A DNA stretch of 64,000 nt from Myxococcales bacterium (lineage in GTDB: Bacteria; Myxococcota; Myxococcia; Myxococcales; Myxococcaceae), in contig JACPVI010000076.1 of NCBI GenBank assembly GCA_016191815.1, positions 1-64,000 of the forward strand, read 5' to 3'. The position numbers and the translations under genes were made by a program. Below, piece after piece: positions 2,431 through 63,211 of this stretch; the stretch's first letter is position 1, and every line of letters begins with the position of its first letter. Under the pieces are notes generated by a model. That model saw only the letters and a program-made list of their open reading frames with translations. It searched no databases and was not told the origin of the DNA.

Positions 2431-5400
2431 GTGTTTCCAGAGACCTCCAGCGCCCAGGGCCGCGAGAATCCGACCCCCCCTCCCCTTCCCGCGCGCCAGG
2501 AGGTCGGCCACGCCCGGCTGATCCGCGAGGTCCGCTCACACGCCCGCCGGCAGCTCTGGCTCCGCGGCGCGCTGTGGGGGATTTCCGCCGCGCTCTTGCT
2601 CCTCACTGCCGCCGCCTTCGCCGCCCTTGCCTCGCCGCTCGTTGGCCGGCTGCTCGCCTTTGCCGCCCCGCTGGCCTTCCTGGGGCTTTTGCTGTTCCAC
2701 GGAATTTGGGTGGCCTTCTCCCAGGTGGGGGACGATCCCAGGGCCGCGCGGCTCGCGGGCGGTCGGCTCCCTTCGCTCTCCTTCGATCTCCTCGCCGCGG
2801 TCGAGCTTCGGCGCGCCCTGGGGAGGGCCGACGGTTTCTCCAAGCAGCTCGCCCGCGCCTTTCTCGAGCAAGTCGACGCCCAGGCGGGAGCAGCGGACGT
2901 CCGCCTGGTGGTGGATGGAAGACGCGTGCGGCCTGCAGCGGCAGCTTTGAGCGGCGCCTTGCTGCTCGGTTGCGCCGCCATCGTGGCCTGGCCCTCGGCC
3001 TTCCTCCGGGGAGCCCGCGCGGCGCTGCGGGTGGAGGAGACCCCCGTCGGCCAGGCCCGCGAGCCCATCACCGGGGACGTGGAGCTGACCTACCGCTACC
3101 CCGCCTACACCGGGCTGGCCCCCCGCACCGTGCCCGGCACCAGCGGAGAGGTTTCGGCGCCGGCGGGCACCGAGGTGCAGATCTCCACCCGCGCCGACCG
3201 GGAGGTGGCGCGCGCCGAGCTGGTGGTGAACGGAAAGTCGGTGCCCCTCGGAGTGTCCGGGGGCAGGGACCTCTCGGGGAGCTTCGTGGTGGACAAGCCG
3301 GGCCACTACCACTTCGCCTTCCAAAAGCGCAGCGGGAAGGTGGCCGCGCGCGGGCCGGAGGTGCCGATCCACGTGGAGACCGACGCCGCGCCCCAGGTGA
3401 AGCTCGTCTCGCCGCTGGATGAGCTGGAGATCGACCCAGGCGAGAGCGTGACGCTCAGGTACGACGCCAGCGACGACTACGGGCTCTCCAAGCTGGAGCT
3501 GGTCTTCCGTCCGCCGGGGAAGAGCGAGGATCAGCGGGTCCCGCTCAAGCACGACGAGGGCAGGAGGTCCAAGGGCCAGTACGTCTGGGACGTGGGCGCG
3601 CTCGAGCTCGAGCCGGGCCAGCGCGTCACCTACTTCCTCGAGGTGCGCGACAACGACGAGGTGGAGGGGCACAAGAAGGGCGTCTCCCGCACTCAGTCGC
3701 TCAAGCTCTACAGCGCGGCGGAGCACCGGAGGGAGGCGGTGCGGAAAGCAGAGCGCCTGTGGGAACGGATGGTGCTGCACCTGGCCGACCGGCTGGAGGG
3801 GCCCGACCGCGCCCCGGAGAAGGACCTCGGCCGGGTCTCCGCCGCGCAGTCGGTGGACGCCTCGGCCTTCCAGCTCGCCACCGACCTCTTGGAGGCCGCC
3901 CGCGAGCTCTCTGCCCAGCGCGACTCGCCGGAGGAGCTGTACGCGGCGCTGGTCAACATCGGCGAGGCCACCCGGAAGATGGCGATGGGCACCTCCGATG
4001 CCCGGCGGATGTTCTTGCGCTTCCACCGCGCCCGCGGCCTGGAGCTGGACGGAGCGCGGAGGCTGGTCCAGGCGGCGGTGGCGGAGATAGCCGGCACCGA
4101 GCGCAACGTCCTCTATCTGGAGTCGCTCCTCGACCGGCAGAAGATGCGGGAGCTGCGCGAGCTGGCCTTGCAGCTCCAGCGCGACCGCCGCGAGCTGGCC
4201 TCGCTGATCGAGCAGTTCCGCCAGACCAAGGACGAGAAGCTCAAGGAGGACATCCTCCGCGAGGTGCAGAGGATGCGCGAGCGCATCGACGAGCTGATGC
4301 GGAGGATGGGCGAGCTGGCCAAGGGCATCCGCGACGAGCACTTGAACCAGGAGGCCCTGCGCGAGCTGATGCGCGAGCGCGACCTCTCCAGCGCGCTCGA
4401 CGAGATGGAGCGGCTCTTGCGCGAGGGGAAGGTGGAGGAGGCCCTGGCCAAGCTGCAGGAGCTGGCGATGCAGATGGAGGAGATGCTCCAGCAGCTCGAG
4501 GACGCCGAGGAGGACGCCGCCGCCGAGCAGAACCCCGAGCTGACCAGGAAGTTCCAAAAGTTCATCGACGAGCTTCGGGACACCGCCGCGGAGCAGAAGG
4601 AGCTGGCCGAGCGGACCAAGGAGATCCGCGACCGCTACAAGGAGCAGCTAAAGGAACGCCTCAGCCAGAGGGGAAAGACGCTCAAGGAAGAGCTCTTGCG
4701 GAAGGCCGAGGAGGTGGCCAAGGACTACCAGTCACTCTCGCCGGAGCAGCTCCCGCGGGCGGACCAGCACCTCGAGCTGGCGCAGTCGGAATTGGAGAAT
4801 CTCAAGAACGCGCTCAAGGTGGAGGACTACGATTTGGCCGCGCTGGCGGCGGCGCGCGCCAAGGAAGCGGCGAGGAGACTGGCCGATGAGGGCGACAACC
4901 AGCGCCGGCTCGACGAGCGTTTCCAGAACCCGCCGGAGGTGCAGCAGCAGTCCCGCAAGATGGCCGAACGGCTGCGCCACGATGCAACCAAGGTCGAGGA
5001 GATCGACCGCAAGTTGCAAGACCTCTTCCCTCCGCCGGGCTCGATGCTCAGCGAGGAGGACCGGGAGGAGCTTCGCCAGATGTCCGGCGAGCAGCGCGGG
5101 CTGGAGCGGCGCGCCCAGGGCCTCCAGCAGAGGATGGAGGAGATGGATCAGCTCGCTCCCATCTTCGGCGAGGAAGCGCAGGAGCAGATGGGGCAAATCT
5201 CCGAGCGGATGGGCGGCGCCTCCCAGAGGCTGGAGATGAGAGATCCCTCCCGCGGCCACGGCGAGCAGAAAGCCGCGCTGGATCAGCTCCAGCAGTTCCA
5301 GCGCCAGATGCAGCAGTCGAAGGGAAGGGGCGGCAAGGGCGGCGGGCTCCCCCTGCCGATGATGGCCGGGCGGAGGAGGGGCTGGGGGCACCACGACCAG

Positions 5401-57912: not shown

Positions 57913-58506
57913 ATGCGTGACCCCAAGGGCTTCTCCTCATGGAGCGGGTGTTGGGGGCGAGGGGCGGTTCTCTCGGCAGTGCTTCTGGCTGCGGCCATCG
58001 CCAAGGCGGGTGGCAGCGACCCGGAGGTCATCGACGCGGACGCGCTCAAATCGCGCCTGGCTGCGGCCAAGGCCCCGCTGGTGATCGACGTGCGCACGCC
58101 CGAGGAGTACGCCAAGCAGCACCTCCCCGGCGCCATCAACGTGCCCTGGAGCGACGAGGCCGAGGCCTTCGTCAAGGCGCTCCCGCCCGAGGCGAAGGCG
58201 GAGGTCATCTTCTATTGCAACGGCCCTACTTGAGGGAAGAGCCGCGCTGCCGCGGTCGCGGCACTTGACGCTGGCTTCAAGAAGGTCATTCGGTTCTCCG
58301 AAGGGGTCTCCGCGTGGAAGGCCAAGGGCTATTCGTTTGACACGAGCTCGGTGAAACCGGCAGCCGCCGACGTAGCCAAGAAGGGTTCGGGCAAGGACGC
58401 CGCGCCGGGCGAAGCGGGGTGTTGCCCGGAAGCGGAACCGGGCGGAGCCAAGAAGCCTCCAGAGAAGTCCGCCCCCGCCAAGGCCCCACCGGCCAAGGCG
58501 CCGTAG
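57913..58506 (+). CDS. Exported rhodanese-like selenoprotein, Sec107 encoded by TGA
   Basis: The frame from the ATG at 57913 passes an in-frame TGA (58231-58233) and ends at TAG (58504-58506), giving 197 residues. A signal peptide (GAVLSAVLLAAAIAKAGG) is followed by a rhodanese domain: PLVIDVRTPEEYAKQHLPGA, then AEVIFYCNGPT-TGA-GKSRAAAV. In this rhodanese group the loop reads CNGPxCxxS, so the TGA stands for the second, catalytic Cys. After it the fold completes normally (LDAGFKKVIRFSEGVSAWKA). A Lys/Pro/Ala-rich tail with a Cys pair (GEAGCCPEAE, 170-171) closes the protein. A SECIS-like hairpin starts 14 nt after the TGA. A sulfur or selenium transferase in the periplasm is inferred; no partner is known. 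A conventional stop would leave a broken rhodanese. Confidence 0.85.
58248..58263 (+). promoter_or_regulatory. Candidate bacterial SECIS hairpin of the rhodanese gene
   Basis: TGCCGC-GGTC-GCGGCA forms six perfect pairs and a GGTC tetraloop beginning 20 nt after the TGA. A G among the first two loop bases and a GU step match the bacterial SECIS consensus. The segment is also coding, as bacterial SECIS elements are. Confidence 0.65.
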
Positions 58507-58543: not shown

Positions 58544-59557
58544 TCATGCGCCCAGGCGTGCGAGGTGCGACTGGACCGCGCGCGAAAGCCCGCCGGGCTC
58601 ATATCCGCCTTCGAGGACCGAGACGACGCGCCCACCGGCATGCTGCCGCGCGATCTCGACGACCGTATCGGTGAGGTCTGCGAAATCGGCGTCGGTGAGC
58701 GTGAACCCTCCAAGCGGATCGCCAGCGCGCGAGTCGAAGCCGGCGGAGATCATCACCAACTGGGGCTTGAACCGTTCGGCGGCCGGGACGAGCACCTCGC
58801 GAAACGCGGCGACGATCTGCTTTCGCCCGGAACCGGCCGGGAAGGGCCGGTTGAAGATGAGGCCGCGCGCCTTGCCGTCGCCATTCTCGCTCGGGCTGCC
58901 GGTGCCGGGATACCAGGGATGCTGGTGGGTGTCGAAGAAGAGCACCGAGCCATCGCTCCAGAACACGCTCTGCGTGCCGTTGCCGTGGTGGACGTCCCAG
59001 TCGGCGATGAGGATCCGCTCGACACCGTGCTTCCGCCTGGCATGGCGGGCGCCGATCGCCACGTTGTTGAAGACACAGAACCCCATGCCGCGGCTCTCTG
59101 ACGAGTGGTGACCGGGCGGGCGCACCGCGCAGAACGCGCGCCTGGCGCGCCCGCTGATGACCGCGTCGACGCCTGAAACCACCGCGCCCGCGGCCGCGAG
59201 CGCCGCGGCCAGCGTTCCAGGCGAGAGGTCGGTATCGCCGGTGCTGAGCGTCCGGCGTCCCGCGGCCACCTCCGCGCGAACCTTGGCGAGATACTCAGGG
59301 GTGTGGACGAGGAGGACTTCCTCGTCCGTCGCCGGGCGCGGAGCCTCGATTGAGAGCTTCCGCTCCCGGAGGGCGCTCATCACCTCCTCCAGCCGAGCCG
59401 GCCTCTCCGGGTGGCCGGTGGGAGGCTCGTGCCGAAGTGTCTCGGCGTCGTAGAAGACTCGCATCGCGGGACCCCTTGAGAGACCCAGCCCACCATCGAC
59501 CCCGAAGAGCAGCAAGGCACCCGACGCCCGATGCAGGAGCTCTCGGCGGCCGACCAT
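58544..59557 (-). CDS. Histone deacetylase-like (class II/AcuC-type) amidohydrolase with Tat-like leader
   Basis: The catalytic domain starts MRVFYDAETLRHEPPTGHPE and has the deacetylase hallmarks RPPGHHSSESRGMGFCVFNN, ILIADWDVHHGNGTQ, SVLFFDTHQHPWYPGTG and MISAGFDSRAGDPLGG, containing the zinc Asp-His-Asp set. Such enzymes act on acetyl-lysine, acetylpolyamines or similar amides. From the ATG at 59557 an N-terminal GRRELLHRASGALLLFGVDG precedes the domain and resembles a twin-arginine signal, which is odd for this family. A later ATG at 59464, with AAGGGG upstream, would give a 306-residue cytoplasmic protein. It ends convergently 38 bp from the rhodanese gene. Confidence 0.88.
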   Translation of the reverse strand: MVGRRELLHRASGALLLFGVDGGLGLSRGPAMRVFYDAETLRHEPPTGHPERPARLEEVMSALRERKLSIEAPRPATDEEVLLVHTPEYLAKVRAEVAAGRRTLSTGDTDLSPGTLAAALAAAGAVVSGVDAVISGRARRAFCAVRPPGHHSSESRGMGFCVFNNVAIGARHARRKHGVERILIADWDVHHGNGTQSVFWSDGSVLFFDTHQHPWYPGTGSPSENGDGKARGLIFNRPFPAGSGRKQIVAAFREVLVPAAERFKPQLVMISAGFDSRAGDPLGGFTLTDADFADLTDTVVEIARQHAGGRVVSVLEGGYEPGGLSRAVQSHLARLGA

Positions 59558-59610
59558 GACCCCGCCAGTGTAGTGCGCGGGGAAGATCGCCGTCTCGAAG
59601 ACCACCGAAG

Positions 59611-62343
59611 TCAGAGGCGATTGATCCTGACCTTCATCTCTTTGTGGATGGCCATGCCGGACAGTCGCTCCGATTCCGGCTGGAGGAAAATATTGTCCGA
59701 CACCCCGCGCCCCCGGGCGAGGCGCCCCATGAACTTGGCGCCGTAGCCATGGTGCAGGCCCACTGCTTCCGGATGGATGCCGTCAGTCAGGTGAACTCGG
59801 ACCGTGCCCTTTCCGTAGGGAGAGGCGAGCTCCACTTCTTCGCCTTCCTCGAGCCCGATGGACGCTCCCGTCTCCCGGTTGACCCACAGGAAGTTTTCCG
59901 GCTTCAACCCCATGAGCCAAGGGTTGTTCTGGGTGCGCGTGTGCGTGTGCTCAGCCTGCTTCCAGGTGACCAGGTAGAAGGGATAGGCATCGCCTGGCAC
60001 GGTCTCGGGCGGGAAGTATTCCGGGAAGCCCGAGTAGCGTTGCCCGGTCCGGTGGTTGATGAGCCCGGCGAGCAACTCGGACCTGAACTCTACCTTCCCG
60101 GATGGGGTCGAAAACCCGGGTCTGTTCCCTGCGTTCGCCGTGTACTTGCGATACTGGGTTTCGTTTCCAACCCAGACGGCTCCAGGAAGACTCTTGAGCT
60201 CGCCTAGCCCTATCCCGATGCTTCGCTTGAGGGCTTGATCGAGGTAGCTCTCGTAGCTCAGCTCGAAGCCCGTTAGGCCCAGGCGCCGGGCAAGACCGAT
60301 GATGAAATCGGGCTCCGTGGGCTGGCCGAAGCGTGGGGGGAGCACCGCCTGCCGGAGCCCGACCGCGGCGTAGTTGACCCAGAAGACGGCGAGATCCGTC
60401 CGCTCCAGGAAGACAGTTCCCGGAATCACGAAGTCGGCCAGGGCCGCCGTGTCACTCATCATCGTGTCGATGGCTACGACGAGCTCCAGCTCCTTTCGGT
60501 GAAGAGCTTCGATGGTTCGCTCCTGGCTCGGAATGGAGAGGACGATGTTCTGGAAGTTCAGGATCAGCGCCCGAGGTTGGTACGGGGTCCCCTCCAGGAC
60601 GGCGCGAATGGCCTCGGTGTAGACGCCTGATTCGTGCCCAAGCGGGTATCGGCTTCCTGCTCCGTCGACCCGCTCCTGCTGGATCCGGGGCCAATCGGGA
60701 TGTGGAGCACGCCGGAGGAGAGCACATCGCTCAGAGGGAATGTGGAGTCCCCCGCGCTCGTCCAGCATCCCCACCAGGCCGTTGAGGAGCATGATGGCGT
60801 AGATCGCCAGAGTGCCGTTCGAATGGTGCTCGGGACCCGACCAACCGTCGATGGCGCATGGCTTGGTCGTGCCGATCTTTCGCGCGAGCTCGACGATGGT
60901 CGACGCGGAGATACCGGTGATCTCCTCCGCCCACTGGGGCGTCTTGTCCTTCAGCCATTGGCAGAACTCCCCGAACCCCGTGCTCCATCGGGCGGCGAAG
61001 CCCTCGTCGTAGAGCCTTTCGGCGATCAGGACTTGGGCGAGGGCCAGCGCCAGGGCAGCGTCGGTCCCCGGGCGAATGGGAATCCATTGGTTTGCCTTGG
61101 CTGCGGTGTCGCTCAGGACCGGATCGATCACCACGAGCTCCGCGCCGCGCTCCTTCGCCCGCATGAGATCCGGGACGAGGTGAGACCACTTGATTGCCGC
61201 CACCGGGTTCCAGCCGAAGAGAACCGCCAGGCGCGTCTGCGAGAGATCAGCGAGCGGACGCGGGTGGCCGAACGCGAGGGTTGCACCGGCTTTTCTGGCC
61301 ACGTCGCAAAGGTTGGAGTGCATCATGAAGTTGGGAGTCCCGAAGGCCTGGCAAAAGTCCTTCTGGATGTCCACGTAGGAGGCGTCCTCTGACATCCAGA
61401 GGAGCGTGTGGGGGCCGTACCGATCTCGGATAGCCCGGAGCCTCTCGGCGATCTCCTGGTAGGCCTCTTCCCACGAGATCGAAGCCCATCGCCCCTCCCC
61501 TCTCTCTCCCAGCCGCTTGAGAGGAGTCCGCACCCGGTCGGGATCGTCAAGAGCTGCCGCGGCGGCGTACCCTTTGGCGCAGAGCTTGGCCGCATAGGGA
61601 CTCGCCGCTACCTCTTCCCGGAAGACGCGGGAGTTGTTGCTCACGTTGTTGGGACAGGCCGGGTTCGGCCGGACATCGGTAACCCGCGAACCCTCCAGCC
61701 GCACCAGGACGCCGCACTGGCTTCCGCAGATCATGCACAGCGTGGGGGTGTACCGAGCGAGCAGCGCTCGATAGCGCTCGTTTTCGAGGCGGCGGGAAGG
61801 GCCGAGGCGAGTCCGGTAGTAGAGGTTCGGTTCAGAAATCGAGGAGGCGGGTATTCCGGGGAGGTCTCTCGTGAGCCCGGAAAAGTCGAAGTCTTCCTTG
61901 GTGCCGTACTGGAGAGCCCCGGACATGCAGGCCGTGACGCAGGCGGGGTCGAGTCCCTGGGCGATCTTGTCGATGCAGAAGGAGCACTTCGCTACGGTAC
62001 CCGCCCGGCGGTCATAGCTGATGGCGTCGTAGGGACAGGCGAAGGTGCAGTAGCGGCAGCCCATGCAGCGCTCGGGACGGTGAATGACCACGCCGGTGGC
62101 CGGGTCCTTTTGGAGCGCGTTCGTCGGGCAGGCACGGACGCAAGGAGCACTCTCGCAGTGGTTGCAGGCCATCGACACGAAGCGACGCCTGGGAGTTGGG
62201 TAGGCCCCTGACTCGAGAATCCGAACCTTCCGGAAACGGATCTCGGGCTCCTCGATGCCGTTCGAACGCTTGCACGCCGTCTCGCAGGCCCGGCACTTCA
62301 CGCACCGCTCTACGTCCTTCACGAAGACGAGCTTGCGATTCAT
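59611..62343 (-). CDS. Fused ferredoxin-type and molybdopterin oxidoreductase (DMSO/polysulfide reductase family)
   Basis: This encodes 910 residues from the ATG at 62343. The first 190 residues are a DmsB/PsrB-like electron-transfer domain with four Cys clusters (CVKCRACETACK; CNHCESAPCVRACP; CMGCRYCTFACP; CSFCIDKI...CVTAC). The catalytic molybdopterin part begins with a [4Fe-4S] site (CMICGSQCG...LCAKG) and a candidate Mo-ligand Cys in HSNLCDVARK, as in polysulfide/thiosulfate reductases. The C-terminal cofactor domain (SPYGKGTVRVHLTDGIHPEA) is complete. Two subunits that are normally separate are fused, Fe-S first, and no Tat signal is present, so the enzyme may face the cytoplasm. It lies 13 bp after the DmsC-like anchor gene. 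The substrate is unknown. Confidence 0.88.
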   Translation of the reverse strand: MNRKLVFVKDVERCVKCRACETACKRSNGIEEPEIRFRKVRILESGAYPTPRRRFVSMACNHCESAPCVRACPTNALQKDPATGVVIHRPERCMGCRYCTFACPYDAISYDRRAGTVAKCSFCIDKIAQGLDPACVTACMSGALQYGTKEDFDFSGLTRDLPGIPASSISEPNLYYRTRLGPSRRLENERYRALLARYTPTLCMICGSQCGVLVRLEGSRVTDVRPNPACPNNVSNNSRVFREEVAASPYAAKLCAKGYAAAAALDDPDRVRTPLKRLGERGEGRWASISWEEAYQEIAERLRAIRDRYGPHTLLWMSEDASYVDIQKDFCQAFGTPNFMMHSNLCDVARKAGATLAFGHPRPLADLSQTRLAVLFGWNPVAAIKWSHLVPDLMRAKERGAELVVIDPVLSDTAAKANQWIPIRPGTDAALALALAQVLIAERLYDEGFAARWSTGFGEFCQWLKDKTPQWAEEITGISASTIVELARKIGTTKPCAIDGWSGPEHHSNGTLAIYAIMLLNGLVGMLDERGGLHIPSERCALLRRAPHPDWPRIQQERVDGAGSRYPLGHESGVYTEAIRAVLEGTPYQPRALILNFQNIVLSIPSQERTIEALHRKELELVVAIDTMMSDTAALADFVIPGTVFLERTDLAVFWVNYAAVGLRQAVLPPRFGQPTEPDFIIGLARRLGLTGFELSYESYLDQALKRSIGIGLGELKSLPGAVWVGNETQYRKYTANAGNRPGFSTPSGKVEFRSELLAGLINHRTGQRYSGFPEYFPPETVPGDAYPFYLVTWKQAEHTHTRTQNNPWLMGLKPENFLWVNRETGASIGLEEGEEVELASPYGKGTVRVHLTDGIHPEAVGLHHGYGAKFMGRLARGRGVSDNIFLQPESERLSGMAIHKEMKVRINRL

Positions 62344-62356
62344 GGTGCCGCGTGGC

Positions 62357-63211
62357 CTAGACGTAAAGGGTTCCGAACCGACCCGCGGGCGACGACGAGG
62401 AATAGAAGAGCATTCGTCCCGAAAGCTCGCCCATGGCCAAGACGGCCAGGAGAATTCCCTGGGACCTCGTGCCCGCCAGCAAGAGCACGAGCGGAAGAAC
62501 GATGCCCAAAAGCACCCGCAGCAGGAAGAGGAGTGGTTCAGCCGAGAGAATGGACTCCCTCTTGATGGTGGAGACGATCCGCGGCCAGAGGCGAAAGCGC
62601 TTGATGTGCCAGAGCTGGACCAGGGCCAGGGCCAAAAGGGTCAGGCCGGTGTTGAAGACAGCCGCCCTGGTGTACTCACCGCCGGTCAGCTGAAGAAAGA
62701 TGGGAAGCCCCAAAAGGTTCGCCGTACCCGCGAAGCTCAGCACGGTGACCAGGCTCATCCACATGGGACGGCTTGGGAGGAGGTAGACCCCCGTCATGGC
62801 CGCGAGGAGCAGCAGTGCCGATGCCGCCTCCGTCCCGAGCGCCACGCGGAGGGTGAGCCCGGAGGGGGCTTGTCTCCACAAGAGAAAAGCCGTTCCGCCC
62901 AGCGCCAGGGCAAGAATCCCTGCCGAGGCGATCTCGCGACTGAGCCAGGAGTGGGAAACCCCGGCGATCGCTCGGTAGGCCGCTCTCCTTCGACCGAGGT
63001 GAAAGAAAGAAATCCCCTGTGCGAGTACGAGCAAGAGCAGCAGCAGGAGGTGTGGCGCGGCTGAGCTCGCCGCCGGTGTTCTCTCGGACAGGCCAGAGAT
63101 GGCCAGGTACGTGGTGGCCCCGACTGCGCTCTGGCCAATGAGCGTGAAGAACACCAAGGAGAGCTCCCACTCGCTCTTGGGGTAGCCGTGGCGTGGCGCA
63201 GATCGGCTCAT
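62357..63211 (-). CDS. DmsC-like membrane anchor of a molybdoenzyme
   Basis: This encodes 284 residues from the ATG at 63211. About eight hydrophobic helices are seen. HSWLSREIASAG in the middle is the DmsC signature, and the N-terminus EWELSLVFFTLIGQSAVGAT is typical of the family. It should transfer electrons between the quinone pool and the Fe-S domain of the fused enzyme encoded 13 bp downstream. Together they form an oxidoreductase of the complex iron-sulfur molybdoenzyme group with only two polypeptides. Confidence 0.88.
   Translation of the reverse strand: MSRSAPRHGYPKSEWELSLVFFTLIGQSAVGATTYLAISGLSERTPAASSAAPHLLLLLLLVLAQGISFFHLGRRRAAYRAIAGVSHSWLSREIASAGILALALGGTAFLLWRQAPSGLTLRVALGTEAASALLLLAAMTGVYLLPSRPMWMSLVTVLSFAGTANLLGLPIFLQLTGGEYTRAAVFNTGLTLLALALVQLWHIKRFRLWPRIVSTIKRESILSAEPLLFLLRVLLGIVLPLVLLLAGTRSQGILLAVLAMGELSGRMLFYSSSSPAGRFGTLYV

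Follow-up and report, generated by a model that had tools for sequence, protein, structure and literature searches.

A probable selenocysteine codon in the lengthened active-site loop of a predicted exported rhodanese-like protein from a myxobacterium

Does a TGA codon in the middle of a rhodanese-like gene end the protein, or is it read as selenocysteine (Sec), and what would the residue do at that place in the active site? The question is raised by an open reading frame near one end of the window, by which we mean the whole stretch of 64,000 nucleotides analysed here (contig JACPVI010000076.1 of a Myxococcales bacterium). A preliminary description, made from the letters of the window, had noted the in-frame TGA and an intact downstream half of the domain. 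Both are borne out: the frame runs on to a TAG at 58504–58506, 91 codons past the TGA, and when the TGA is read as Cys the Pfam Rhodanese model (PF00581) spans residues 42–138 without a break, at 69 bits against a gathering cut-off of 22.2. The codon lies in the context FYCNGPT-U-GKSRAAA, and the closest homologues of the protein are about 40% identical to it. An Rfam scan of the window gave no match. The features of the locus are collected in Table 1.

Table 1. Features of the rhodanese-like gene; positions are those of the window.
Feature	Position	Strand	Basis
Sec-containing rhodanese-like open reading frame, 197 aa with UGA taken as Sec	57913..58506	+	single in-frame TGA; PF00581 match (Pfam, E=5e-19) runs through it
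Predicted signal peptide, residues 1–32 (h-region AVLSAVLLAAAIA, A-K-A cleavage motif)	57913..58008	+	inspection of the translated sequence; crude hydropathy rule
TGC codon, Cys102, at the canonical catalytic (persulfide) Cys position	58216..58218	+	aligned with the YCxGxxRS Cys of PDB 6mxv and 1yt8
In-frame TGA, predicted Sec107	58231..58233	+	38 distinct homologues have TGA at this codon, 50 have TGC/TGT
SECIS-like hairpin (stem of 6 bp, loop GGTC)	58248..58263	+	loop 20 nt after the TGA; agrees with the bSECIS model of PMC13188914
Tail at the C-terminus, rich in Ala, Pro and Lys and containing a Cys-Cys pair	58345..58503	+	absent from the aligned homologues (alignment)

Decoding of a UGA as Sec calls first for the machinery. 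The search of the host genome (6.77 Mb, 98.8% complete) that the preliminary description had proposed found all of it: SelA (570 bits), SelB (334 bits), SelD (363 bits; L042, G000:C6:22128-23057) and a tRNA-Sec with the anticodon TCA (77.9 bits). SelD is itself a selenoprotein: an in-frame TGA occupies its usual Sec/Cys position (SRCAG-U-AAKI), so that recoding of UGA is evident elsewhere in this genome. A second Sec rhodanese is also encoded in it, on contig 22 (L133, G000:C22:155000-163000, minus-strand open reading frame with its start near 3990; L059). Its motif is AYCSGPR-U-PRSSEAV, and a hairpin, GGAGGC-CGTGC-GCCTCC, follows with its loop 17 nt after the TGA. This second protein lacks an export signal by the crude hydropathy rule, groups with proteins carrying AYCRGPYC, and is probably cytoplasmic.

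Homologues were searched with a four-sequence profile in 145 genomes of the same order, and the codon aligned with U107 was read in each. It is TGA in 38 distinct homologues and TGC or TGT in 50, and some genomes carry two Sec/Cys homologues. The Cys five residues before this position is kept in every homologue, in the TGA and the Cys forms alike. SelA was found in 34 of the 35 genomes with a TGA form, the exception being a genome that is 61% complete; among genomes with Cys forms only, 16 have SelA and 10 do not (Fisher p=0.0005, phylogeny ignored). For instance, within one family (f7), the two genomes of genus g32 carry Cys and have no detectable SelA, whereas genera g38, g43 and g44 carry TGA and, apart from the 61%-complete genome, have SelA. 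Relatives with a true stop and nothing conserved beyond it had been named as evidence that would speak against Sec; instead, the TGA homologues keep the downstream part of the domain. A scan of a genome collection gave two relatives, and only that from Desulfobulbaceae, a Cys form, spans the U107 codon.

A tree of 88 rows needs eight changes between the Sec and Cys labels, and its well-supported branches force at least six of them. On this tree, therefore, Sec and Cys have been exchanged repeatedly at the U107 position, in one direction or both. The window gene forms a long branch near the Cys forms with CNGPxC. This position does not suffice to show that the gene acquired its Sec independently, since the test does not reject (p-AU 0.27) a tree that unites the gene with the nearest Sec clade.

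The perfect 6-bp hairpin with a GGTC loop described earlier downstream of the TGA was found, formed by TGCCGC (58248–58253), GGTC (58254–58257) and GCGGCA (58258–58263). The bacterial SECIS model has a stem of 4–16 bp and a loop of 3–9 nt, with G in the first two positions, 16–37 nt after the UGA (PMC13188914). With 6 bp, GGTC and 20 nt, the hairpin fits this model. Taken alone it is weak evidence and was rejected as stand-alone proof, because 32% of random synonymous recodings, with local codons and the same residues, place an equal stem in the allowed position (p=0.32); the recoded stretch is alanine-rich. What lifts the hairpin above chance is its conservation together with the TGA in 38 distinct homologues. 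A strong GC-rich stem with a G-containing loop that starts 17–22 nt after the TGA is present in 38 of 38 TGA genes. All seven pairs of the commonest register can form in 27 of 36 distinct TGA sequences but in only 1 of 50 Cys sequences, and 93% of the pair cells in that register are paired in the TGA set against 55% in the Cys set. The register of the window gene is slightly shifted, with the loop at 20, and so are those of L070 and L072. Apparently the sole Cys gene with all seven pairs is L075 (G076). It adjoins Sec genes in the tree, with a support of only 85/58, and may be a Sec-to-Cys reversion that retains a fossil SECIS hairpin. The complete Sec machinery, the exchange of TGA and TGC among homologues and the conserved SECIS-like hairpin together argue for decoding of UGA codon 107 as Sec, to which we assign a probability of roughly 0.93.

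The place of the Sec in the active site is different from that first proposed. The TGA had been put at the catalytic Cys, and the suggested alignment with Cys-containing rhodaneses did not uphold this: the TGA does match a Cys of the homologues, but not the catalytic one. In the alignments with 6mxv and 1yt8, it is Cys102 that pairs with the canonical catalytic Cys (YC/NC), and U107-G108 fall in a two-residue gap; together with the invariance of Cys102 among the homologues, this rules out Sec as the replacement of the canonical Cys. The loop reads C-x7-S where canonical single-domain sulfurtransferases have C-x5-S, and thus departs from the canonical length. By alignment, then, Cys102 and the predicted Sec107 make up a C-x4-U pair, with the Sec second, and the active-site loop that holds them is lengthened. 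A C-x4-C pair also occurs in the AYCRGPYC proteins, which are related to ArsR-rhodanese fusions. An AlphaFold model built from a two-row alignment is of low confidence (pLDDT 52, residues 103–106 below 50); it would place a strand at 97–101, a loop and a helix from 108, in agreement with a rhodanese loop.

The N-terminus of the window protein, with R16, the hydrophobic core AVLSAVLLAAAIA and an A-K-A motif, resembles a signal peptide, and we infer, as did the preliminary description, that the protein is exported. The periplasm had been called an unusual place for such an enzyme. To the contrary, 36 of the 38 TGA homologues, the window protein included, have a signal- or lipoprotein-like N-terminus by the crude hydropathy rule, and predicted export is typical of the family. 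The surroundings of the gene yielded no conserved sulfur-pathway neighbour, and no adjacent gene points to a particular substrate. A gene of the histone-deacetylase family (58544–59605, minus strand; Pfam E=1.5e-95) lies next to it. Beyond, at 59611–63211 on the minus strand, a molybdopterin oxidoreductase fused to a 4Fe-4S subunit and then a DmsC-like anchor make up an operon of the DMSO-reductase type. A link of the rhodanese to this operon was considered and rejected: the two are convergent, the histone-deacetylase-like gene stands between them, and the arrangement is not conserved in homologues.

Sec rhodaneses as such are known. Their occurrence in the Sargasso Sea set has been reported (PMC1088965), and five forms have since been catalogued, of which form 1 is represented by WP_010941598.1, a PF00581 rhodanese-like selenoprotein with UxxS (PMC13188914). 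The window protein can be likened to form 1 by motif only, having likewise a single Sec followed by xxS (U107-G-K-S110). Its best NCBIfam match is TsoB (NF045694, E=1.3e-17), which was matched by all four members scanned, and the UxxxxU spacing of TsoB equals that of Cys102-x4-Sec107. TsoB, however, has two Sec and a fused DsbD-like part, whereas the window protein has Cys at the first position, one Sec, no fusion and 197 residues; its score of 63 bits, against a cut-off of 805, leaves it outside that family. LYCAU (NF041203, CxU), a rhodanese-related selenoprotein, is likewise small and bears Sec next to the YC cysteine of its active-site loop, but its Sec comes two residues after the Cys and that of the window protein five (C-x4-U), and the window protein scores 39 bits where the cut-off is 115. 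The literature searched gave neither a tested function for any catalogued Sec rhodanese form nor a paper that brings together myxobacteria, selenoproteins and SECIS.

What chemistry would such a loop support? A Cys at the persulfide position with a selenol five residues on suggests that one residue accepts and the other resolves. SelB and tRNA-Sec would decode UGA 107, directed by the hairpin just downstream. Polysulfide, thiosulfate or a protein persulfide would donate sulfane sulfur, or a sulfur species in oxidised form, to Cys102. Attack on the bound species by the selenolate of Sec107 could then set sulfide free and join the two residues in a Cys-Sec selenenylsulfide. The pair would be recycled by thiol reduction in the envelope, plausibly through a system of the DsbD type; a DsbD_TM protein is encoded in the same genome. 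We give redox-pair chemistry of this kind about an even chance, on the geometry of the motif and the TsoB fusion, and the protein would then serve the cell envelope as a couple of Cys and Sec for redox or sulfane-sulfur chemistry.

Alternatively, as the preliminary description implied, the protein could be a plain thiosulfate or polysulfide sulfurtransferase of the PspE or Sud type, whose Sec would carry the transferred sulfur or selenium in the form of a perselenide. PspE is a small, single-domain, exported rhodanese; the window protein shares this build, with its export predicted and Cys102 at the YC position, and has the rhodanese fold match and a similarity to PspE models, at a score below the cut-off. 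PspE has the canonical short loop, with neither Sec nor a second loop Cys. Plain sulfur transfer is nevertheless the unlikelier reading, at well below an even chance, since the Sec stands off the canonical persulfide position, Cys102 is kept in all homologues, and canonical loops offer nothing that corresponds to the second Cys/Sec. Improbable in turn is an enzyme resembling Cdc25 or arsenate reductase, or another oxyanion reductase, with a Cys/Sec pair in a lengthened loop of the rhodanese fold. The loop indeed exceeds that of canonical rhodaneses by about two residues, a weak similarity to CDC25A exists (E=0.001), and C-x4-C is common to cytoplasmic ArsR-rhodanese fusions; but the C-x5-R signature is absent, the predicted location is outside the cytoplasm, and there are no arsenic or phosphatase neighbours within the window. 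That the gene is a recently inactivated rhodanese, its TGA a true stop arising by TGC-to-TGA mutation or sequencing error and its product a fragment of 106 residues, is highly improbable: one base change would suffice, a close orthologue for a selection test is absent and the window hairpin alone lies within chance, yet the same codon is TGA in 38 homologues nearly confined to SelA-containing genomes, these homologues have an intact downstream domain and the conserved hairpin, the Sec machinery is complete, and 90 codons stay open past the TGA.

With UGA 107 read as Sec, the exported C-x4-U architecture, its wide spread in the order and the repeated exchange of Cys and Sec appear little described. 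We tentatively suggest, at odds clearly below even, that these exported rhodaneses make up a large and so far undescribed branch in myxobacteria. In this branch Sec and the second, loop-extension Cys of C-x4-C would have replaced each other several times (six forced changes or more), and a selenium-dependent chemistry of persulfides or disulfides, distinct from ordinary sulfur transfer, would take place in the cell envelope. As standard gene calling ends a gene at UGA, the Sec rhodanese genes would be cut short by it across the order. Homologues with an invariant catalytic Cys and either Sec or Cys at one loop position form a natural series for testing what selenium contributes to rhodanese chemistry.
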